34,435 nucleotides of DNA from Nitrososphaeria archaeon (lineage in GTDB: Archaea > Thermoproteota > Nitrososphaeria > Geothermarchaeales > JDFR-13), in the NCBI GenBank assembly GCA_027047855.1, contig JALTTZ010000029.1, forward strand, positions 1-34,435. Reading direction: 5' to 3'. A model generated the notes under the pieces. It was given only the letters and a program-made list of their open reading frames with translations, did not search any database and was not told where the DNA came from. Within the stretch, counting starts at the first letter, position 1. Each line of letters starts with the position of its first letter. Shown here piece after piece: positions 3,800-32,255 of the stretch. A program made the translations under genes and the position numbers.

Positions 3800-3875
3800 C
3801 TTCAAAATTTTTTGATATCCTTTTGAATCTTCAATCAAAGAGTTGTTTTATAAGGTTTTGGCTTCTGCTTCTTGA

Positions 3876-5126
3876 TTGATGACGATTCAAATTGGCTTCC
3901 GTGATGTTGAGGACGCCGGATTTGAGGTCGGTTGGGATTTACTTAGTAAAGGGACGATAGTTGTAGGTAAATATGATGAGCCATCGATTATTGATATTAT
4001 TGAGCTGGCTACTTCAAATTCTATCCATCCTGTTCTATTTGACTTTAGGGGATCGTGGTTCGATGTTGATATAGGGGTTCCTGATGTCGCGAGATACGTC
4101 ATAGGCATAGATATTCCTTTTAATATTTTGATTCCTCCTAAAGGTATCCGCGTAGACTTGTATTTCGATTTGGTAGTTGATTCACTTATTATTGTGTATA
4201 AGATTCTGGGCCAGTCTAGACTCGAGTGGAGGCAAGGTTTTGTGGATATTATGCGTAGATTATATGATCGGGAGGGTTATGTTAATAATGAATTGGTTAT
4301 ATCTGAATTGGAGATCTTAAGAAATGAAGCTAGCGGATTTGATAAACATATGTATTCAATACTGTATAGCTTCTTAAGATACTTGATTTACAGTGGTGCC
4401 TCAAAGAAAATATTTGGTAGTGATGAGCCTTTCGATTATGAAGCCTTAATAAAATATCCAAGTATAATTAATTACTCTTTTACAGGAAATTTCTATTCCT
4501 CTCTCTTTCTTTATGTGGTATCTATCTTTGCTAGCCTACTTTATTCGATTAGCCGTCTAAATATCTTCTTCTGCGGCGATTTTTATATGCCGCACTTAAG
4601 TGCTCTACATATGGATATTCTTATGTCTTCCCTGGAGACTATGTATAATGTTATCCATTTCTATTCGTTGCCTTCAAGGGATGTGGTAGTTCCTTACTAC
4701 AATGTAGTGATTGATAATAGGTTGTTAAGTAAACTGTGGAGGAGGGTTAGGCTCAATCCGTTACTATTTGACGATTACTCTACTCACCACTTAGTTAGCG
4801 TGGGGCGTCTTATTCCAATTAGGATTGAGCGCATCGTGAGGAGGTACCTGACTCATATACCCTCCCCTCCCAAGGATATAGATGACTATAAGCCCCCCAG
4901 TTCCTTAATACAGAATATTTTATCTAAGGTTAGGGATTTGGGTGGAGTAGGGTTGGAGGGATTATATATGTATTTTCGGGAGTGGGATAGGGGAGATGTT
5001 TATATGGCTGTTGAGTGGCTGTGGAGGAATGGGTTTTTAAGGAAAGAATACATGGGCAATAGACCTGTGTATAAGGTCACTATTAAGGGGCTTATGAAGT
5101 TAAGGGAAGGTGGGGGTAATGGTTGA
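3876..5126 (+). CDS. Divergent HerA/DUF87-like ATPase-fold protein with degenerate Walker A, plus C-terminal winged helix
   Basis: GWDLLSKGTIVVGKYDEPSI...VLFDFRGSWFDV...DIPFNILIPPKGI...YKILGQSRLEWRQGFVDIMRRLYDREG follows the motif order of HerA/DUF87 ATPases (P-loop, DPHGEW-like strand, fNPL, LLxRALxxLYexrG) but the P-loop GxxGSGKS is absent. wHTH-like tail EGLYMYFREWDRGDVYMAVEWLWRNGFLRKE. Confidence 0.5.
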   Translation: MMTIQIGFRDVEDAGFEVGWDLLSKGTIVVGKYDEPSIIDIIELATSNSIHPVLFDFRGSWFDVDIGVPDVARYVIGIDIPFNILIPPKGIRVDLYFDLVVDSLIIVYKILGQSRLEWRQGFVDIMRRLYDREGYVNNELVISELEILRNEASGFDKHMYSILYSFLRYLIYSGASKKIFGSDEPFDYEALIKYPSIINYSFTGNFYSSLFLYVVSIFASLLYSISRLNIFFCGDFYMPHLSALHMDILMSSLETMYNVIHFYSLPSRDVVVPYYNVVIDNRLLSKLWRRVRLNPLLFDDYSTHHLVSVGRLIPIRIERIVRRYLTHIPSPPKDIDDYKPPSSLIQNILSKVRDLGGVGLEGLYMYFREWDRGDVYMAVEWLWRNGFLRKEYMGNRPVYKVTIKGLMKLREGGGNG

Positions 5127-6111
5127 TAGGTTTATTATTCGTAGTATTCCTAAAGTGAATGTTTTGTTTGGAGGTGGTTTGCCAAGGGAAAGTATGGTGC
5201 ATATTTATGGTCCATTTCAGAGTGGGAAAACATTCCTTATTTATCAACTGCTTTATGAACTGGTTTACCAGGGATTGGGTAATGCATTATATATCGATAC
5301 TGAGGCCTCATTTAGAAGCAATTTCTCCGATGAACTCACTATGAGGTTCGCTAAGCGTTTCGGTTCGGGAGTTAAGATTTCGGATGTACTTATTACGAGG
5401 GGTGTTTTAAAGAGGGGTGGTAAGAAGGTTAGGCTAAGCGATTTTAAGAAGGAGTTGGCCGCGGTACTGGATGATCTAGAGTACGTTTATGATCTAGAAG
5501 ATTTGTCGGATGCGGTTAAGTTCTTTGTACGTAGTATTGATTTGTATAGTGAGGAGCGTGGTAAGCGATTAATCTATCTATTAGATAATGTGGATATAGG
5601 GAGTATGCTTAGGTTACTTGATATAGATGCGGAGGTGGAGAGAAAGGGGGGTAAAACAGAGGTAAAGATAAAGGGCTTGTCTGACCCGATTACCAGTCCT
5701 TTATCTAAGTTTATCAGGAAATATAAAATTAGTTTTCTTGTTGTAGATAGTTTAGGGATGCTTGTTAAGGGACTTGCAATCTCACTTTCCGATTTGCCTG
5801 CTAGGGCGGTGGTGACTAATTTAATCGTAGGTGGTTTGATTAGGTTGGCTAGCTCGTACAAGTTGGTTGTCATCGCGACTAATCATGAGAGTAAAAATCC
5901 TACTGGGAAGGGGTTCCACTCTTTTTATGGTGGGAACGCGATCGGCTACGGCTTCAAATTTTCGTTATATTTGTCTAAGATAGGGAGGGGTAAAAGAAGG
6001 TTGGTTGCTGAAAGGTCTCCATTACTGCCGGAATATACTCATTATGTAGATTTGGAGATTAAGGAGGATGGTTTTTATGAGATTAGGGAGTCTGCTGAGG
6101 AAGGCGACTAG
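5110..6111 (+). CDS. RadB/RecA-superfamily ATPase with a large insertion between Walker A and Walker B
   Basis: GGGLPRESMVHIYGPFQSGKTFLIYQLL (Walker A), NALYIDTEASFR, Walker B FLVVDSLGML, L2-like VIATNHE, GGNAIGYGFKFSLYL; overlaps the preceding gene by 17 nt. Confidence 0.8.
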   Translation: MGVMVDRFIIRSIPKVNVLFGGGLPRESMVHIYGPFQSGKTFLIYQLLYELVYQGLGNALYIDTEASFRSNFSDELTMRFAKRFGSGVKISDVLITRGVLKRGGKKVRLSDFKKELAAVLDDLEYVYDLEDLSDAVKFFVRSIDLYSEERGKRLIYLLDNVDIGSMLRLLDIDAEVERKGGKTEVKIKGLSDPITSPLSKFIRKYKISFLVVDSLGMLVKGLAISLSDLPARAVVTNLIVGGLIRLASSYKLVVIATNHESKNPTGKGFHSFYGGNAIGYGFKFSLYLSKIGRGKRRLVAERSPLLPEYTHYVDLEIKEDGFYEIRESAEEGD

Positions 6112-6421
6112 GTTCCTATTGTTTCTCTCGACGGTATACTTCATTTCATATGGTATACTTTATAAAGTAGGTGATTCAGTGCTGGGGGAATCCCTATCAA
6201 TATTTACTATTATATTAATTTTTATGACGTTTTATTATCCTCTGTTTTTTCCGAGAAGACTGTATGCTGTTTGCTTAATATCTATAGTGCTCTTAGTTTA
6301 CAATATGTGGTTAGCCATTTTGGTTGTTACTGTTTCTCTTATTAATTTGGTTGGTTGGCATAGCCTTGCCAACATTATACTTTTTATTAAGCATGTTCTA
6401 CGGAGGCTTAAGGGTGAATAA
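6068..6421 (+). CDS. Small membrane protein, probably about 4 transmembrane helices
   Basis: Hydrophobic segments FLLFLSTVYFISYGILY, LSIFTIILIFMTFYYPLFF, LYAVCLISIVLLVYNMWLAILVVTVSLINLV; overlaps the RadB-like CDS by 44 nt (less if ATG 6077 is used). Confidence 0.7.
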   Translation: MVFMRLGSLLRKATRFLLFLSTVYFISYGILYKVGDSVLGESLSIFTIILIFMTFYYPLFFPRRLYAVCLISIVLLVYNMWLAILVVTVSLINLVGWHSLANIILFIKHVLRRLKGE

Positions 6422-6424
6422 AGA

Positions 6425-7234
6425 TTGGTCAGCGCATTTGAGTTAAGGGAGTTTATTGACTCGGCGATGAATAGTTCCAAAGTATTAAATATAATGATGT
6501 ACCTTTTCGATTGGAAATTTATATTCCGTTTAGAGTACGTTGATGCAGCGGGAAGAAAATTCAAGTATGTATTTCCTAAGTCGATATCTTCGGTTGATAG
6601 TCTCCTAATGTTTAAAGATATGAGATTGATGAGCTCAAGTAGGTTAACCCTCTCGCTAGGGGAGGTTTTAATATATAATGTTATTCGTGTGAGGGGTAAG
6701 CAAATTTGGGGTGTATATAAAGCCAAGGTCTCTAGTGGAGGTTTGGGAATTAAGTTTTTCAAGAATAAACTTTTGTCTTGGGGTTTTGTGCCTAAGACTA
6801 GGACCACGCATTACAACTCTTCTCCTTTAAGGATTCGTGTTTCTTTAATCCTGCCATTTGATATAGAGGGATTTATCGAGTTTTATCGATATTTACCATC
6901 CCCAAGGGGGATATCCAAAGAACTGTTCAATAAGATGATGGATTATTTACGTAACTCTCGGAGGAAGCTTTATCCGATCCTCTTGACTCCAAGGCCCCCG
7001 ATTAAGTTGGCTGGGGCAGCTCTTTTTAAATATCTGACCTATAATTCTCCATTTAATAATCCAGATCTATATCTGGGGGGTTACAAGACCCAAGATATTG
7101 TTTTTATAACGTCGCCTGACTTATACTGGGGTGATATAGAGGCTTCTGAATTGGTGGCAGTTGATATAGAGCCGTTGATTGGCAGTTATATAGATGTTAA
7201 AGATGGTTCCTTTGTATGTAACCTAATGATTTAA
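6425..7234 (+). CDS. Hypothetical protein, last gene of the HerA-like/RadB-like cassette
   Basis: 269 aa ORF from TTG 6425, 3 nt after the membrane-protein stop; no recognised family. Confidence 0.65.
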   Translation: MVSAFELREFIDSAMNSSKVLNIMMYLFDWKFIFRLEYVDAAGRKFKYVFPKSISSVDSLLMFKDMRLMSSSRLTLSLGEVLIYNVIRVRGKQIWGVYKAKVSSGGLGIKFFKNKLLSWGFVPKTRTTHYNSSPLRIRVSLILPFDIEGFIEFYRYLPSPRGISKELFNKMMDYLRNSRRKLYPILLTPRPPIKLAGAALFKYLTYNSPFNNPDLYLGGYKTQDIVFITSPDLYWGDIEASELVAVDIEPLIGSYIDVKDGSFVCNLMI

Positions 7235-7244
7235 GTTTGTATAA

Positions 7245-7886
7245 TTACCGCTGTATTCTTTTGATTGATCCAAATATTAGTCCGATGATGAATCCTCCGA
7301 TGTGGGCCCAGTAAGCTACTGGCAAGTCAATTAATGCCACAATAGTTATTGATGCAAATATGGCTTGCATAATAAACCAAATGAATATGTAAAATACTGC
7401 TCTTATCTCTACGATTCTGTAAAAGTAGTAGCCTAGTGGTATTAGGGTTAATATTTTTGCGTTAGGAAATAAGACTAGATAGGCTCCAAGTATGCCAGAC
7501 ACGGCTCCCGAAGCACCTATAGCTACAATATAGGGGTTTGCCGAAGTTATCGTGAAGAGGATTGAACCGAAAATTCCTGACATGAAATATAGAATAAGGA
7601 ATGCTGGTCTTCCTAGTCTGTCTTCAACGTTGTCCCCAAATATCCAAAGGAACCACATGTTTCCTATCAAGTGCTCCGCTCCACCGTGCAGGAACATGGA
7701 TGTTATCAATGTTTCCAGTCTAGTCATCTTATAAATGTAGACTGGTCTGAAGCCGTATGTCTCCACGATAGCTTCGTAATTTGGACTTAGGAGGGTATAG
7801 ATGAAGACTATTATGTTCAATACGACTAGCAATCTTGTCAAGATTGGTGTTTTCTCAGCTTTATTTATATCTTTTAATGGGAACAT
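7245..7886 (-). CDS. Rhomboid family intramembrane serine protease
   Basis: GGAEHLIGNMWFLWIFGDNVEDRLG, catalytic Ser motif AIGASGAVSGILGAY, catalytic His in YWAHIGGFIIGLIFG. Confidence 0.93.
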   Translation of the reverse strand: MFPLKDINKAEKTPILTRLLVVLNIIVFIYTLLSPNYEAIVETYGFRPVYIYKMTRLETLITSMFLHGGAEHLIGNMWFLWIFGDNVEDRLGRPAFLILYFMSGIFGSILFTITSANPYIVAIGASGAVSGILGAYLVLFPNAKILTLIPLGYYFYRIVEIRAVFYIFIWFIMQAIFASITIVALIDLPVAYWAHIGGFIIGLIFGSIKRIQR

Positions 7887-7976
7887 TCCTAACCCTTTTT
7901 GTGTTAACTGTTAGGTTATGTTAATAGTATTTAATACATCTAACTCATAAATTCTAGGTTTTCATTTTAGTTATGT

Positions 7977-8450
7977 ATGAAAAGTATTTCTTATGTGCCT
8001 TTCTACAAAGGATCATTAGAAATCGTCTACGAGGATTATGTAATTTTTGGTGTTAGGTATCTGCATATGGTAAAGCTTAGGAAGAATCTTGAGGATGAAG
8101 TTCCTAGCATGTTTGTTCGTTATGCAGGGGGTCGGGAGGTTTCTTTTAATGAACTGGTCCTAGCAAAGGGTCTGGGTTCACAGTTCGATTATAATGTATG
8201 GAGGGCTGCTAGGTCGATTCCATATGGGGAAGTTAGGAGTTATGGATGGTTGGCAGAGAAGGTGGGTGGTAAACGGTATTCAAGGGCCGTGGCCATGTCT
8301 CTCTCTAGGAATCCTTTTCTTATTGTTGTGCCTTGCCATAGGGTTATCAGAAGTAATGGTGGTTTGGGTGGCTTTTCGTCTGAGGGTGGGTTGGAGCTTA
8401 AAAAGTATATGCTTGGTTTGGAAAATGCCCTCCGATATGTAAAAATATAA
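7977..8450 (+). CDS. ogt: Methylated-DNA--protein-cysteine methyltransferase
   Basis: VWRAARSIPYGEVRSYGWLAEKVG and active-site VVPCHRVIRSNGGLGGFSS. Confidence 0.93.
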   Translation: MKSISYVPFYKGSLEIVYEDYVIFGVRYLHMVKLRKNLEDEVPSMFVRYAGGREVSFNELVLAKGLGSQFDYNVWRAARSIPYGEVRSYGWLAEKVGGKRYSRAVAMSLSRNPFLIVVPCHRVIRSNGGLGGFSSEGGLELKKYMLGLENALRYVKI

Positions 8451-8457
8451 GGTTGTT

Positions 8458-8530
8458 ATTGCTCAGCCTGCCCGTCTGCTACATCTACCCCTAGACGGGG
8501 TATCAAATACTACAATGGCTCATCATCGCG
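8458..8530 (-). ncRNA. Probable C/D box sRNA
   Basis: Reverse complement: gcg-ATGATGA (C)-gccattgtagtat-TTGA (D')-TACCCC gtcta GGGGTA hairpin-GATGT (degenerate C')-agcagacgggcagg-CTGA (D)-gc. C box 8520-8526, D box 8463-8466; GC-rich island in an AT-rich intergenic region; first guide is complementary to 16S rRNA CUACAAUGGC. Confidence 0.65.
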
Positions 8531-8611
8531 AATGTTCCAATATTATATCTAATTCCTTTTGTCATATATTTATGTAACTATTTACCTAACTTCTTTAATC
8601 AGCTTAGTAAG

Positions 8612-9505
8612 TTATTTTGTTGTCTTGGCTGTTTCCCATAGTGCCTTCGACGCACCTTTCCAAACCATTGGGATATAAATTAGACTTGATAGGTAGGCTA
8701 TGATTGTTGATATGACTTTTTTTATGTTTTTTGACTTGTATAGTTCCCTTATAAAGAGTGCTATCTGAGTTTTTAGACTGAGTTTTGTTTTTATGGTGTT
8801 ATTTACTATTTTTTCTAATTGTTTATGACCTAAGTATGCTCTTATTACCTGGGAGGTAAATTCGTATAGTTTTAGTGGAGGCTTAAAAAATACCTCGGTG
8901 TTTCCCAAATATACCGTAGCGAATCCCATTCTGCTTACCATACATTGTAGGTAAAGATCGACTGAGATTGTATCTGGTGGTATGTAGATATTTCTCGCAA
9001 TTTTCTTGCGGAGGGCTAGCGCTCTTCCCATTATTGTAAATTGGGCTTGGGGATATAATGTTCTTATTGTATGAAGCCATTCGTTTATTGTTTTTGTAGC
9101 TAGAGCAGCTATTGATTTGAGTTCGATTGTTCGTGTTCTGCATCCCACTATTCCTATTTTTGGGTTACTTGCTAGAGTTTTAGCGAGTTTTTCTATTACT
9201 TTCGGGGATAGTGAAATATCTGCATCGAGTAGTATTATTGTGTCTCCATCGGCTTCTCGAAATATCGTATTCCAAGCATTTGATACTCCCATTCTTTCAT
9301 TATTATGGATAAATTTTATGTTAAAGGGATATTTGGTCTCTCTTAGATGTTTACTAACCATCTCTGGTGTGTCGTCATTACTGTCATCGACTATTATAAC
9401 TTCTCTTATTGGTGAACCTGAATCGAATTCTTTCTTTAGTTGGGTTAGGAGTTTTATTAAGTTTTCTCCCTCGTTGTAGGCAGGTATTCCGATGGTTATT
9501 TCCAA
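8612..9505 (-). CDS. Family 2 glycosyltransferase
   Basis: ITIGIPAYNEGENLIKLL, VIIVDDSNDDT, ILLDADISLSP (DxD), C-terminal hydrophobic segment. Confidence 0.92.
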   Translation of the reverse strand: MEITIGIPAYNEGENLIKLLTQLKKEFDSGSPIREVIIVDDSNDDTPEMVSKHLRETKYPFNIKFIHNNERMGVSNAWNTIFREADGDTIILLDADISLSPKVIEKLAKTLASNPKIGIVGCRTRTIELKSIAALATKTINEWLHTIRTLYPQAQFTIMGRALALRKKIARNIYIPPDTISVDLYLQCMVSRMGFATVYLGNTEVFFKPPLKLYEFTSQVIRAYLGHKQLEKIVNNTIKTKLSLKTQIALFIRELYKSKNIKKVISTIIAYLSSLIYIPMVWKGASKALWETAKTTK

Positions 9506-12717: not shown

Positions 12718-13926
12718 ATGGCGGATTTGAGGATCGGTATTATTGGTAAGACTAATACTGGTAAGACGACTTTCTTTAATGCGGCTACATTGTTGAATGC
12801 GGAGATTCAGCCTTATCCCTTTACCACTAAGAGGCCTAACATTGGTGTGGCTCATGTATCGTCGCCGTGTGTTTGTAGGGAGTTTAATGTGAAGTGTCAA
12901 CCTAGGAATAGTGTGTGTATTGGTGGGTGGAGGTTCCATAGAATAACGCTTATCGACTTGCCCGGTTTGATTAAGGGGGCTCACATGGGTAAGGGCTTGG
13001 GTAACCAGTTCTTGGGTGTTGCAGCCCAGTCTGATGCATTGATTCATCTTGTGGATGCATCTGGAAGCATTGATGCCGAGGGTAATATTGTTGAAGTTGG
13101 ATACGGGGACCCTCTGGCTGACTATTATGATATTGAAGAAGAGCTTGCCCTCTGGTATCATCGGATTATTGAAGGTAATAGAATGACTATAGAGAAGCAT
13201 GAGAAGAATATTGGTCTGGTTGACGCTTTGTATTCTGTTTTATCGGGTATTAAGGTTAAGAAGGAGCATATTGAGGAGGCTTTGATACTTAGTGGTTTGG
13301 AGGATATTCCATTTAAGGATTGGAGTATGGATGATTCCAAGGTATTTGCTTATCGTGTAAGAGAAATATCTAAGCCAACGATCGTGGTAGCGAACAAGAT
13401 TGATTTGGAGGGTGCTGAGAAGAATTACATTAAGCTTAACAATACTCTTAAGGATGTCGTGGTTATCCCTGCTTCAGCCGATTCTGAGCTTGCTCTGCGA
13501 AGGGCTGAGCAGAAAGGATTGGTCGAGTATATTCCTGGTGATGAGGAGTTCCGTGTTAAGGATCCTTCTAGGCTCACGGCTAAGCAGAAGAAGGCACTTG
13601 AGTATATGGAGCGGTTTGTATTCTCCAAGATTATGAGGACTGGTGTGCAGTTCGCATTGAATACTCTTGTCTTTAAGGTTATGGGGTACAAATACGTATA
13701 TCCTGTTCATGATATTGAGAGGCTGAGTGATAGGAAGGGAAGAGTGTTGCCTGATGTCTATTTATTGCCAAGGGAGGCGGATCTCGAAGATTTGGCTGGA
13801 GAAATTCATACAACACTGAGGAAGAATCTTTTGCATGGCATTGATGTTCGAACGGGTATTAAACTACCGCGTAATTATATCCTTCATGACAGAGATGTGG
13901 TTCACCTGGTTGTTGCTCGTAGATGA
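12718..13926 (+). CDS. TRAFAC GTPase, OLA1/YchF-like archaeal type
   Basis: G1 GIIGKTNTGKTTFFNAAT, G3 LIDLPGLIKGAHMGKGLGNQFLG, G4 VANKIDLEG, C-terminal TGS-like region. ORF track starts at 12682; ATG at 12718 preferred. Confidence 0.93.
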   Translation: MADLRIGIIGKTNTGKTTFFNAATLLNAEIQPYPFTTKRPNIGVAHVSSPCVCREFNVKCQPRNSVCIGGWRFHRITLIDLPGLIKGAHMGKGLGNQFLGVAAQSDALIHLVDASGSIDAEGNIVEVGYGDPLADYYDIEEELALWYHRIIEGNRMTIEKHEKNIGLVDALYSVLSGIKVKKEHIEEALILSGLEDIPFKDWSMDDSKVFAYRVREISKPTIVVANKIDLEGAEKNYIKLNNTLKDVVVIPASADSELALRRAEQKGLVEYIPGDEEFRVKDPSRLTAKQKKALEYMERFVFSKIMRTGVQFALNTLVFKVMGYKYVYPVHDIERLSDRKGRVLPDVYLLPREADLEDLAGEIHTTLRKNLLHGIDVRTGIKLPRNYILHDRDVVHLVVARR

Positions 13927-14870
13927 ATATGAGAACTAGACTCTATGTTGGGGAGAATCTATTCAAATATGGGTTTGAGAACCATCCTTTATCTACTAAA
14001 AGATATGCGAGGTTTTTAGAGTTATTGGAAAATGATGCTGCTTTGAAGAGTTCTTTAGAGTTTTTCGAGGTTGACGGATTATGTAACGAGAGGATTCTCC
14101 GCTTATTTCATACCTCTGAATATATAGGTCGTGTTAAAAAGTTGTCTGAGAGAGGCTATGGGTATATAGACTATGGAGATACTCCAGTATTCAAAGGTAT
14201 CTTTGAGGTTTCATTGGCCTCCGTGTGTGCCTCCGTATATGGTTTGGACTTTGCATATAATCACCGTTCCATTGCTGTTAATCTTGCTGGAGGGTGGCAT
14301 CATGCATATAGAGATAGGGGTTCCGGCTTCTGCGTGTTCAATGATATAGGTGTTAGTATCGAGGTATTGAGGTCTAAATATGGTAATGATTTAAAATTCT
14401 ATTATATAGATATTGATGCGCATCATGGAGATGGGGTATATTACTCGTATGAGTCGGATCCCAATGTATATATATTTGATATTCATGAGGATGGTAGATT
14501 TCTATTTCCAGGTACTGGTGGTTGGATGGAGCGTGGGTCTGGTAAAGCTTTTGGGACCAAGACGAATATTCCACTTCCCCCTTGGTCTGGTGATGAGCAG
14601 TTACTCTCATATATCGATAATTTGATAGAGGATGTGTTTAAGGTCTCGCCAGATGTAATTGTTTTTCAGGCTGGTCAGGATGGGTTAGCGGGTGATCCAC
14701 TTACTCACCTCCAATACAGTGATCAAGGATATTTAAAGGCGGTTGAGCGTGTATTTGGGGTTGCTAAGGACCTTAATATCGGCATTTTATATTTAGGTGG
14801 TGGAGGATATCAACCCAATAAGGTGGCTGAAAATTGGATAAGGGTTCTGAGGATCGCGGTGAATCTCTAG
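13923..14870 (+). CDS. Histone deacetylase/AcuC-like deacetylase
   Basis: NLAGGWHHAYRDRGSGFCVFNDIGVSI, YYIDIDAHHGDGVYYSY, QAGQDGLAGDPL, YLGGGGYQ: zinc ligands and active-site His pair present. Confidence 0.93.
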   Translation: MNMRTRLYVGENLFKYGFENHPLSTKRYARFLELLENDAALKSSLEFFEVDGLCNERILRLFHTSEYIGRVKKLSERGYGYIDYGDTPVFKGIFEVSLASVCASVYGLDFAYNHRSIAVNLAGGWHHAYRDRGSGFCVFNDIGVSIEVLRSKYGNDLKFYYIDIDAHHGDGVYYSYESDPNVYIFDIHEDGRFLFPGTGGWMERGSGKAFGTKTNIPLPPWSGDEQLLSYIDNLIEDVFKVSPDVIVFQAGQDGLAGDPLTHLQYSDQGYLKAVERVFGVAKDLNIGILYLGGGGYQPNKVAENWIRVLRIAVNL

Positions 14871-20684: not shown

Positions 20685-20797
20685 TTTAGCGGGCTTTAGT
20701 TTAGGGGAGTATTTTATTGTATTTAGGTAAATTTTTATATTTCAGATGATGTAAATCAATAGGGACTATGATTAGGTACGCCGAAGAATGTATTGAT

Positions 20798-23389
20798 ATG
20801 GCGGATTTATCTAGGTTATTGGATGAGGATGTGTATAGTTGGTTTAGTAAATTTGGAGATCTGACTCCCCCCCAAAAATATGGTATTTTGCCTATTGTTA
20901 AGGGTAATAATGTATTGATATCTGCTCCGACCGGCTCTGGTAAGACTTTAACTGCATTTATTTATATTATTAGTGAGTTGGTTAAGCTGGATAAACAAGG
21001 GCTCTTGGATGATAATGTTTATGCCATTTATGTTAGTCCCTTACGAGCTCTCAATAATGATATTTATAAGAATCTCTTGGTGCCTCTTCGTGAGATTAAT
21101 AAATTGGTTAAAGCTAGGTTGGGTAGGGAACTGAATATTAGAGTTGCTGTGAGGACTGGTGATACAACTCAATCTGAGAGGAGTAGGATGCTCAAGAGGC
21201 CTCCTCATATATTGATTACTACTCCTGAGAGTCTTGCTCTGGTTATTACGGCGCCCAAATTTAGGCAATTATTGAGGAAAGTTAAGTGGGTAATTGTTGA
21301 TGAGATTCATAGTCTGTGTGAAAATAAGCGTGGTGTCCATCTCGCTGTGACGCTTGAGCGGTTGCAAGACCTTGCTGAGGGACAGTTTGTTAGGATTGGT
21401 TTGTCAGCCACTATTAATCCATTGGAGATGGTGGCTGAATATTTGGTAGGATATAATGATGATGGAAGTCCAAGGGATTGTGTTATTGTTGACACTAGGT
21501 TTCATAAAAAGATTGATTTGCGCTTAATTGCTCCTGTTAGGGATCTCATATATGTTTCTTCTCAGAGGCTTTCAGATGCTCTATATAAGTACTTAAGTAA
21601 GATATTGAATCGTTATAAAACGACTCTGATATTTACCAATACTAGGAGTGGTGCGGAGAGGGTCACCTATCATCTCAAGCGGTTGAATATTGTGGATGCT
21701 GATGAGTTAGGTGTTCATCATTCTTCTCTCTCTAGGGAGATTAGGTTCGAGATTGAGAATAAGCTTAAGCGAGGTTTGGTTAAAGGTATTGTTACTAGTA
21801 CGTCTTTAGAATTGGGTATTGATATTGGGCATATAGATGCTGTTGTTCAGATAGGGTCTCCTAAGAGTATTAATAGGGGGCTTCAGAGGGTGGGTAGGAG
21901 TGGACACTCCATGGATAAAATTTCAAGGGGATATTTCATAGCTATGGATGTAGATGATCTTATTGAGGATGGTGTCTTGATTAAGGAAGCTATGGAGGGT
22001 AAGTTGGATAAGGTATATATTCCCCGGAATTCATTGGACGTCTTGGCTCAGCATATAGTGGGTATGGCTTTAGTTAAGAAGTGGACGGTTGAGGGGGCTT
22101 ATAGGCTTGTTAAGAGAGCCTATCCATATAGGGATCTGGATCGAGAGGTCTTTATCAGGGTCTTGAAATATTTGGCTGGTCATTATCATGACTTGGAGAG
22201 ATACAGGGTTTATGGAAAGATTTGGTTTGATGAGGAGGAGGGTGTATTTGGTAGGCGTGGGCGTTATCTGAGACCTATATATTTTCAGAATATTGGGACG
22301 ATTCCTGATGAGGCTCATATAGTTGCTTATCATGGTCGCAGGAGGATTGGGTATCTTGAGGAGACGTTTGTGGAGAATCTGGATTATGGTGATATTTTTG
22401 TTTTGGGGGGTAAGACCTACCGTTTCCTAGGTTCTAGTGGGAATAAGGCTTTTGTTGAGCCTGTTACTGGATTGAAGCCGACTGTCCCGAGCTGGATCTC
22501 TGAGATGCTTCCATTGTCATTTGATTTGGGTGAGGCTGTGGCAGATGTTAGATATACTCTATGGGTATATATTTCGAATGGGGAGGTGGATAGGGCGTAT
22601 CAATTTATTAAGGAGAAGATGAGGGCCAATAAATATGCTATAGAAAACATTATTAGGTATATAAAGTTGCAAGGGGAATTTCTGTCTAAATTGGGTGTTG
22701 AAGTTTTTCCTAGTAGGACTAATCTCCTTATAGAGGATTATGTAGATTTAGGTGATGGATTGAGGTACGTTATTTTCCATACTGTATTTGGTAGGCGTGC
22801 TAATAATGCGTTGGCCCGGGCATATGCATATGTCGCTAGGAACTTGATCGGTTATACTGTTCGTGTACTGGTTGACGACCATGGATTTGCGTTGATCATG
22901 CCTTCATATCTTCGGTTGGATATGGATGAACTCTTATCTTCCCTTAAAAGTAATAATATTCGGTCGGTTTTGAGGGAGGCTGTAAAGAATAGCCAATATA
23001 TATGGCGTATATTTAGGCATGTGGCGAACCGGGGTTTGATGATACTCAATTATTATAAAGGGAGGAAGACCAGTTTATCTAGACAGCAAATTAATTCTGA
23101 GGCTATTTATAGTGCATTTAGAGAGAGGGATGATTTCCCCTTGATTATGGAGGCGATTAGGGAGATAATCGAGGATAAGATGGATGTTATTAATGCGGAA
23201 AGGGTGTTAAGGGATATAGAAGAGGGTAGGAGGCGTTGGGTTGTAATGCCGGAATACGATATTCCTTCGCCGTTTTCGCATGGATTGTTGCTTAGAGGTA
23301 TGCAGGACGCAGTTTTGATGGAGGATAGGGTAAAGATTCTTCAGTCACTTTATAATAAAATTATGCATAGGGTGGGTATGGCGAAGTGA
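20798..23389 (+). CDS. lhr: Lhr-type (large helicase-related) superfamily 2 helicase
   Basis: SAPTGSGKTLTAF, DEIHSL, GLSATINP, STSLELGIDIGHID, QRVGRSGHS. ORF track starts at 20768; the internal MADLSRLL ATG is an alternative. Confidence 0.96.
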   Translation: MADLSRLLDEDVYSWFSKFGDLTPPQKYGILPIVKGNNVLISAPTGSGKTLTAFIYIISELVKLDKQGLLDDNVYAIYVSPLRALNNDIYKNLLVPLREINKLVKARLGRELNIRVAVRTGDTTQSERSRMLKRPPHILITTPESLALVITAPKFRQLLRKVKWVIVDEIHSLCENKRGVHLAVTLERLQDLAEGQFVRIGLSATINPLEMVAEYLVGYNDDGSPRDCVIVDTRFHKKIDLRLIAPVRDLIYVSSQRLSDALYKYLSKILNRYKTTLIFTNTRSGAERVTYHLKRLNIVDADELGVHHSSLSREIRFEIENKLKRGLVKGIVTSTSLELGIDIGHIDAVVQIGSPKSINRGLQRVGRSGHSMDKISRGYFIAMDVDDLIEDGVLIKEAMEGKLDKVYIPRNSLDVLAQHIVGMALVKKWTVEGAYRLVKRAYPYRDLDREVFIRVLKYLAGHYHDLERYRVYGKIWFDEEEGVFGRRGRYLRPIYFQNIGTIPDEAHIVAYHGRRRIGYLEETFVENLDYGDIFVLGGKTYRFLGSSGNKAFVEPVTGLKPTVPSWISEMLPLSFDLGEAVADVRYTLWVYISNGEVDRAYQFIKEKMRANKYAIENIIRYIKLQGEFLSKLGVEVFPSRTNLLIEDYVDLGDGLRYVIFHTVFGRRANNALARAYAYVARNLIGYTVRVLVDDHGFALIMPSYLRLDMDELLSSLKSNNIRSVLREAVKNSQYIWRIFRHVANRGLMILNYYKGRKTSLSRQQINSEAIYSAFRERDDFPLIMEAIREIIEDKMDVINAERVLRDIEEGRRRWVVMPEYDIPSPFSHGLLLRGMQDAVLMEDRVKILQSLYNKIMHRVGMAK

Positions 23390-30497: not shown

Positions 30498-32255
30498 TCA
30501 CTCTATGTTTCTTCTTTGTTTCTTAAACATTTCAATTAGTTCTTTTTCTGTGGTTGCGTCTTCTGGACTCTTATCTTCTCTATATCTTCCGGTAAATCTC
30601 GGGAATCTAAGTGCAAGGCCCGCACCCTCTTGGAAGACATTATATGCTGCTCTGTGTACTGGGCTTAAAGTGATTTCAGCGGCTTGTATCTCAAGAACTA
30701 TCTGTGGCTCTACCCAATAGTCTGGTTCTAGCCCGGTTTCTACTCTTGCTGGTTTTCTGTCTCTTAGTAATGGTTTCAAGAGTTTATTCATGTATGCTAT
30801 GTCGTCGTCTTTGAACCCGGTTCCTACCTTGCAAACTGATCTAAATACGTCATTTACATCGTCATAAACTGCCATTAGGAAGCTGCTCAAGTTTCCTCCC
30901 TTTCTTCCCCTGCCGTATAATGCTCCTATAACCACTAGGTCTAGGGTGTCTGCTAGTTCTGCTCTATAGTCTCGTTTTAGTTTTATCCATAGCCACCCCC
31001 TGGCCCCTGCTTGGTAAATTGATTCGGGGCCAGCGTTTTTAATTACAAGTCCCTCACATCCGTTTTCTATTGCTAAAAGGAAGAAGTCCCAAAGTTCTTT
31101 TATATTCTTAGGATAGATTAATTCCGATGGTTTTATATACTCACTCTCTTCAATGATACTTTCTAGTATTTTTCTTCTTTCAGGAAAGGGCTTCTTCATC
31201 AAATTTTCTCCATTGATATATACGATGTCAAATACTCTCAGGGTCACTGGTATCTCTTCAATCATTTTTTCAATATCGTATTTTCTCTTTCTTCTCATTA
31301 ATTCTTGGAAGGGTCGGAATTCTCCAGTATTTTTATCTATGGCTACAGCCTCTCCCTCTATAATTACTTTTTCGGCCTTAACTTGGTTCTTAACTATTTC
31401 GATTACATCTGGGAATTGGTATGTGATGTTTTCCAGTCTTCTACTGAATATCAATACTTTGTCTCCATCCTTGTGTATTTGCATTCTTTCTCCGTCGTAT
31501 TTGAAGTCGGCGGCAAGGTTTCCATTAGTTTTTTCCCATGCTTCTTCCGGACTCTTTACTCTCTCTGCCAGCATTGGTCTTACAGGTATACCTAATTTTA
31601 TATCTACCTTCTTTATACCTTCTAGCCCTTCTTCATAAACTACTCGGGTTATATATCCTATATCTGGCACCATATTATATGCTTCTTCAAGTACCGCTTT
31701 ATACTCTCTACCGCCCAGTTTTATTGCTAAGGCTTCTAAAAGGGTCATATCGGCTACTCCTAGTCGCATAACACCCTCTGCGATCCTTGCTATGTATCTC
31801 GCCTCAATTCCATTGGCATCAACAAGTAGACTTGCTAGTAATCTAATTTTATCATTTATTGATCCTTCTCCAGTTGTTTTTGATATTTTGTCGAGGGTTT
31901 CGTAGACCCGTTTAACACTCAACTCTGTTGCAAATAGTGTCATTTGTCTCTTTCTTGATATGAAATGTTCGGCAACTTTACCTATATCACCCAGTTCATT
32001 TAGCTTTTTTTCTACTTGGGAGGCGTCGTATCCAGAGGCCATAGCTATACTTCTGATTATAAGTTTTTCGCTCATTCCTAATTCTAAGCCTACATAGGGT
32101 GGATGGATCTCGCCTAGTATTAGGTATGATACTATGGCGGCCTCTTCTGGATTCTCTATTTTTTTATATAAATCTGCTAGGATACTCATTAGGTCTAGTC
32201 TTGCGGTTGTGTATTCAAGTCTTTGGAAGTATTCTACGAGTTCGCTGAATTTCAA
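30498..32255 (-). CDS. lig: ATP-dependent DNA ligase
   Basis: Adenylation motif I ADFKYDGERMQIHK, VIIEGEAVA, EGLVIKNAG, WIKLKRDY, RFPRFTGRYREDKSPEDA. Confidence 0.97.
   Translation of the reverse strand: MKFSELVEYFQRLEYTTARLDLMSILADLYKKIENPEEAAIVSYLILGEIHPPYVGLELGMSEKLIIRSIAMASGYDASQVEKKLNELGDIGKVAEHFISRKRQMTLFATELSVKRVYETLDKISKTTGEGSINDKIRLLASLLVDANGIEARYIARIAEGVMRLGVADMTLLEALAIKLGGREYKAVLEEAYNMVPDIGYITRVVYEEGLEGIKKVDIKLGIPVRPMLAERVKSPEEAWEKTNGNLAADFKYDGERMQIHKDGDKVLIFSRRLENITYQFPDVIEIVKNQVKAEKVIIEGEAVAIDKNTGEFRPFQELMRRKRKYDIEKMIEEIPVTLRVFDIVYINGENLMKKPFPERRKILESIIEESEYIKPSELIYPKNIKELWDFFLLAIENGCEGLVIKNAGPESIYQAGARGWLWIKLKRDYRAELADTLDLVVIGALYGRGRKGGNLSSFLMAVYDDVNDVFRSVCKVGTGFKDDDIAYMNKLLKPLLRDRKPARVETGLEPDYWVEPQIVLEIQAAEITLSPVHRAAYNVFQEGAGLALRFPRFTGRYREDKSPEDATTEKELIEMFKKQRRNIE

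Follow-up and report, generated by a model that had tools for sequence, protein, structure and literature searches.

Among ATPases that process DNA, the Rad51 family is known for recombinases and their mediators and the HerA/VirB4 type for DNA pumps. Here we analyse a four-gene cassette (genes A to D, positions 3876 to 7234) that encodes a protein related to each of these groups together with a membrane protein. It is located on contig JALTTZ010000029.1 (C29), whose 34,435 nucleotides are referred to as the window and which is part of the 1.37-Mb draft genome (75% complete, 4.4% contamination) of a Nitrososphaeria archaeon (GCA_027047855.1). The relatives of this genome belong to Candidatus Geothermarchaeota and include Ca. 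Geothermarchaeum rappei; their class comprises the ammonia oxidisers, of which the carriers of the cassette are deep-branching relatives. The gene set matches no described system, while its parts come from known superfamilies: A is a degenerate member of the FtsK-HerA superfamily that has lost its nucleotide site, and B is an active-looking Rad51-superfamily ATPase that is neither RadA nor RadB. No publication describing this set was found in open-access full text, an absence that is weak evidence. If the interpretation developed below is correct, an operon with a dead pump-like protein, a live Rad51-type protein, and a membrane protein would represent a new coupling of recombination-type ATPases to the membrane. 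The question is testable: the proteins are small and number three or four, there is a single promoter element, and the pairwise interactions can be listed clearly. Four plus-strand open reading frames (ORFs) had been proposed from the letters of this DNA alone (the sequence-only reading), and re-reading the window returned all of them:

3876-5126, plus strand: gene A, 416 amino acids (TTG at 3876, ATG at 3879), with a degenerate HerA/VirB4/VirD4-type ATPase domain.
5119-6111, plus strand: gene B, Rad51-superfamily ATPase; the ORF opens at GTG 5110, and the alignment of the homologues begins at ATG 5119.
6068-6421, plus strand: gene C, 117 amino acids, small membrane protein with 4 predicted transmembrane (TM) segments, basic at both ends.
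6425-7234, plus strand: gene D, 269 amino acids, fast-evolving soluble protein of unknown fold.

Genes A and B overlap by 17 nucleotides when counted from GTG 5110 and by 8 nucleotides from the conserved ATG 5119, B and C overlap by 44 nucleotides, and C and D are separated by 3 nucleotides.

Comparison with described systems gave the following picture. (i) The PolB2 mutasome is the nearest precedent for the logic of the cassette. It is encoded by the PolB2-PPB2-iRadA operon, in which the RadA homologue is inactive and the polymerase works (PMC11791011). Common to both are a conserved, fusion-prone archaeal operon, an inactivated enzyme, and a member of the Rad51 superfamily that lacks the N-terminal domain (PMC11791011). 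In the cassette, however, it is the HerA-like partner that is dead, a membrane protein is present, the ATPase motifs of B are intact, unlike those of iRadA, and no polymerase family was detected among the neighbours scanned. (ii) A resembles HerA of the HerA-NurA end resection system in the fold of its HerA/DUF87 ATPase domain, but differs by the missing P-loop (0 of 32 homologues) and by a C-terminal winged helix; no nuclease family, and hence no NurA-type nuclease, was found among the proteins of the cassette or in those flanking genes that were scanned. (iii) VirB4/VirD4 (TrwB) and the Ced/Ted importers share with the cassette the best fold match of A (4ag5 and 1e9r) and a membrane protein in the operon. 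Ced/Ted import is defined by the channel CedA with 6 to 7 TM segments, the small pilin CedA1, and an active VirB4/CedB ATPase (PMC9905601, PMC11868833). The cassette has a 3- to 4-TM protein and a P-loop-less A in their place (genes elsewhere in the genome were not searched), contains neither a pilin nor a large channel, and adds a Rad51-type ATPase. (iv) RadB and other archaeal Rad51 paralogues resemble B in having a RecA fold without the N-terminal helix-hairpin-helix (HhH) domain, but B is longer (~330 versus 230 to 265 amino acids), forms a separate long-stem clade, and scores far below the RadB and RadA cut-offs. (v) In the SegAB and AspA partition systems a winged-helix protein and an ATPase are likewise encoded in one operon with palindromic sites nearby; the ATPase of the cassette, however, is of the Rad51/RecA type and not of the ParA/MinD type, and the cassette has two extra components, the membrane protein and the dead HerA.

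Proteins A and B

The ATPase part of A was not recognized by any of the family-level scans. A profile of 23 A proteins nevertheless aligned with DUF87/HerA-type proteins of related genomes over 265 columns (hhalign probability 97%, E=4.4e-11); as a control, the B profile aligned with the same set over just 41 columns around the P-loop. An AlphaFold2 (AF2) model of A, with a predicted local distance difference test score (pLDDT) of 70 and a predicted template modelling score of 0.63, matched in Foldseek the structures of VirB4 (4ag5, E=1.8e-6), DndH-C, the coupling protein TrwB (1e9r), and HerA (4d2i). The 33 matches with E<=1e-3 were confined to VirB4, DndH-C, TrwB/VirD4, HerA, and chains from the inner-membrane complex of R388 conjugation. 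None of the 32 A proteins contains a Walker A motif (GxxxxGK[ST]), nor any GK[ST] within the first 90 residues. The C terminus of A is a winged helix of the MarR/PadR/AspA type (MarR-type profile match, E=8e-5) that resembles the plasmid centromere binder AspA and Sso10a. The earlier description of A as a HerA-like pseudo-ATPase was thus right in kind.

These matches bear on a role in DNA uptake or transfer, in which A and the membrane proteins would form a stripped-down VirB4/VirD4-like inner-membrane platform and B would receive or pull a single strand, as in Ced/Ted import. The closest folds of A are conjugation ATPases, the membrane protein is encoded within the same operon, and archaeal DNA importers use HerA/VirB4 ATPases that are encoded near repair genes (PMC9905601, PMC11868833). 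CedB, however, is thought to power transport, whereas the nucleotide site is missing in each of the 32 A homologues, and the membrane proteins of the cassette are short anchors unaccompanied by a pilin-like gene or a 6- to 7-TM channel. We consider such a role unlikely, if by no means negligible.

B matched the Pfam family Rad51 with E=2.8e-12, and a profile built from 19 B homologues matched the RadA structure 6tuu with E=2.6e-22; the top-listed structure, 3cmu, owes its inflated score to six RecA copies in one chain. All 32 homologues have an intact Walker A motif (GPFQSGKT in the B of the window), and 31 of them retain the patterns of Walker B and DTE. In the 19-sequence alignment, G31, G36, K37, E62, and D210 are invariant (E62 and D210 being the catalytic residues), the RadA-like L1/L2 regions are kept, and the protein begins directly at the ATPase core, without an HhH domain. 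The DTE strand and Walker B lie farther apart in B than in RadA, and the region from Walker A to Walker B is longer. In a tree that also took in RadA, KaiC-like, and RadB-like proteins from these genomes, the B sequences grouped as one long-stemmed clade (support 100/100), separate from both the RadB-like proteins and RadA. Its scores against the NCBIfam equivalogs were 56 bits for RadA (cut-off 259) and 43.9 bits for RadB (cut-off 172.4). The RecA/Rad51-type ATPase that had been predicted to be active therefore retains the motifs expected of one, and its designation as RadB-like holds in the broad sense of the superfamily but not as RadB proper. The draft genome of the window contains two further RadA-like matches (L130 on contig C51 and L135 on C100), which possibly derive from a contaminant.

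Conservation of the gene set and proteins C and D

We retrieved 34 loci from five families (f1, f3, f5, f8, and f11), of which f3, f5, f8, and f11 were placed in the class of the window by GTDB-style kinship. A stands directly before B in 33 of them (f1, f3, f5, and f11), with an overlap, often of 4 to 8 nucleotides, or a gap of at most 23 nucleotides. The sequence-only reading had proposed a single operon, to be abandoned if homologues were not neighbours in related genomes; the opposite was observed. Among 251 sampled genomes of the class, B was found in 31 and A in 30; Thus, all but one of the 31 genomes with B also carry A, and the 220 genomes without B have no A. B is followed by a membrane gene in every locus whose contig or extract reaches far enough; in L122 (genome G537, f11), a 244-amino-acid ORF (7936-8670) is inserted between the two. 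The flanking genes differ among families, namely, SufS/GHMP kinase and rhomboid genes in the window, GatD and GatE in f3, and EF-2 in f11, which indicates that the cassette is kept for itself and reflects more than shared synteny. The set was absent from near-complete f4 genomes and from f6, f7, and f9, and this patchy spread could stem either from losses of an ancient set or from a degree of transfer. A sample of 300 genomes of the phylum returned at E<=1e-20 the window's own genome alone, more distant homologues being indistinguishable from RadA. A mobile or viral origin was considered and rejected: B had no match in the PLSDB plasmids, and A produced merely four weak matches with E<=1e-3 in a structural viral library.

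The distribution also bears on the view that B is an ordinary Rad51 paralogue, a recombination mediator whose neighbours are unrelated and merely share its operon. B is clearly a member of the Rad51 superfamily, and Rad51 paralogues are common in archaea, but A and B occur together and in the same order so strictly across four families with different surroundings that this view is very improbable.

C contains four hydrophobic segments and basic ends according to hydropathy and charge maps, so that the third gene encodes a membrane protein, as had been noted. In 10 of 10 Geothermarchaeales loci, a gene for 103 to 130 amino acids with 3 to 4 TM segments overlaps the end of B. Relatives of D (210 to 442 amino acids, two of them cut off by contig ends) occupy the same position in Geothermarchaeales loci. 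Neither C nor D gave a match above cut-off in Pfam, NCBIfam, PHROG, or PADLOC, in agreement with their initial description as proteins of no recognisable family. The mean pairwise identity among seven Geothermarchaeales was 24% for A, 45% for B, 20% for C, and 20% for D. A 442-amino-acid D in L025 had suggested that D is the N-terminal domain of HerA/VirB4, which was rejected after phmmer and hhalign gave no signal against HerA-type proteins. In f3, f5, f8, and f11, the position of C and D is occupied by one gene (CD), whose product combines TM segments at the N terminus with a soluble part. Outside the Geothermarchaeales, the cassette is thus a three-gene set (A, B, and CD), and the shared position and membrane/soluble layout suggest that C and D together are equivalent to CD.

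Promoter and upstream element

Two features were identified ahead of gene A:

3800-3840, plus strand: operator-like inverted-repeat region that lies downstream of the preceding gene and ahead of the TATA-like element.
3846-3855, plus strand: TATA-like element ttttataagg, read directly, ~28 nucleotides before ATG 3879.

The TATA-like sequence proposed at the outset is therefore present, and most Geothermarchaeales relatives have one at ~25 to 30 nucleotides before the start of A. Ahead of this box, centred 55 to 70 nucleotides before the start of A, Geothermarchaeales carry the inverted repeat TTGCAAAAATTTTTGCAA / CTTCAAAAATTTTTGAAG. The window contains TCAAAATTTTTTGA at 3802-3815 and, in common with L021, CTTCAATCAAAG at 3829-3840; this degenerate copy has 3 mismatches (chance in the window 0.5), an inverted-repeat score that was reached by 3 of 60 shuffles, and a position that agrees with that of the palindromes of the relatives. 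We then considered where these elements occur in whole genomes. Allowing at most 1 mismatch, TTGCAAAAATTTTTGCAA / CTTCAAAAATTTTTGAAG was present in 5 (f1) of 12 whole genomes, each time solely before A. The f11 genus g35 has another element, TGTGCGTCAGnnnCTTAAG, which is accompanied by inverted repeats nearby and was located in 7 of 8 genomes as a single copy just before A; as both elements were picked from A promoters, their presence there is by construction, and the tested part is their occurrence nowhere else. Backward-pattern controls for both elements gave 0 occurrences. In f5, f3, and the other f11 members, A is preceded by conserved but different repeats, although in f3 the best inverted repeat per sequence was mostly no better than shuffles. 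The upstream element, which the sequence-only reading had not mentioned, is thus lineage specific and, in the 5 genomes of Geothermarchaeales and the 7 of f11, confined to the cassette. For genus g3, a function of the palindrome as terminator of the preceding gene was rejected, since the upstream gene is transcribed divergently, and no Rfam match indicative of an RNA element was found in the window.

Confinement of the element to a single operon matches the prediction of autoregulation, which the operon may well undergo; the winged helix of A would be the simplest candidate binder. Two further explanations take this element as their starting point. (i) The cassette may serve signalling or regulation, with the membrane protein sensing the state of the envelope or DNA, B acting as a KaiC-like ATP switch, and A as a transcription factor on a dead HerA scaffold. 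The MarR/PadR-type winged helix at the end of A, the operator-like element ahead of the operon, and the speed at which A, C, and D diverge in comparison with B would fit. No wider regulon was seen, however, as the element stands at the cassette alone in 12 genomes, and the Rad51-like L1/L2 regions kept in B go beyond the needs of a switch, so that we regard this as doubtful, slightly more so than DNA uptake. (ii) Alternatively, the element may be centromere-like and the cassette a segregation or anchoring system, in which A is the winged-helix binder, B the ATPase, and C or CD the membrane anchor. There is one site per genome, adjoining the operon, and the winged helix of A is like those of AspA and Sso10a. 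That similarity is generic, though, a lone promoter-side site is equally expected from plain autoregulation, and B is of the RecA type, unlike the ParA-type ATPases of SegA and AspA systems; we thus judge segregation to be improbable.

Proposed mechanism and genome setting

Handling of DNA is suggested by the protein families, namely, the Rad51-type L1/L2 regions in B and the HerA/VirB4 fold and winged helix in A. We favour, at roughly even chances, an autoregulated, membrane-tethered cytoplasmic complex in which B is an ATP-driven motor or switch and A a catalytically dead DNA-binding scaffold. The cassette proteins would physically associate and bind DNA. B, a Rad51-superfamily protein without the N-terminal filament domain of RadA, would be the motor or switch, and A, with its nucleotide site lost and its winged helix, the structural and DNA-binding subunit. 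The membrane protein C and the cytoplasmic D would keep the complex attached to the membrane on its inner side, and in the other families a single protein with a membrane and a soluble part would replace both. A regulator, most simply the winged helix of A, would bind the lineage-specific inverted repeat upstream of the promoter and regulate this operon alone. Candidate cellular roles are DNA uptake or exchange, repair at the membrane, segregation, and signalling. A more specific proposal, which we put forward tentatively as a possibility of clearly lower probability, is that the cassette encodes a membrane machine so far undescribed in archaea: an active Rad51-family motor would drive a catalytically dead HerA/VirB4-like DNA-binding subunit tethered by C and D, and the machine would move or position DNA and be regulated through an operator of its own.

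A number of observations weigh against the favoured complex. (i) Profile comparison gave no signal of homology between C plus D and CD, and the AF2 model of CD from a five-sequence alignment is unusable (pLDDT of 39). (ii) In most f11 loci, a divergent winged-helix gene of ~87 amino acids, with similarity to the C-terminal winged helix of A, is found beside or a few kilobases from the cassette (for example, L086:6621-6884, L085:6448-6708, and L087:10115-10378); the element may thus be read by that protein instead of A. (iii) In the f8 genome G046 (L032), B and CD are present and no A is recognisable, so A and B are separable, and in G015, A is split by a frameshift that may be an assembly artefact.

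The region upstream of B in G046 contains, on the opposite strand, apparent frameshifted fragments of a major facilitator superfamily transporter, which may reflect an assembly error or a true loss of A.

In the window, the cassette is preceded by a GHMP-kinase gene at a distance of 76 nucleotides and bounded downstream by a convergent rhomboid gene (7245-7886, minus strand). Right after the latter, positions 7977-8450 encode an O6-methylguanine-DNA methyltransferase-type protein (Pfam DNA_binding_1), which is kept in several Geothermarchaeales neighbourhoods. Unlinked to the cassette, the window also encodes a histone deacetylase-family protein (13923-14870), an Lhr-type helicase (20768-23389), and an ATP-dependent DNA ligase (30498-32255).

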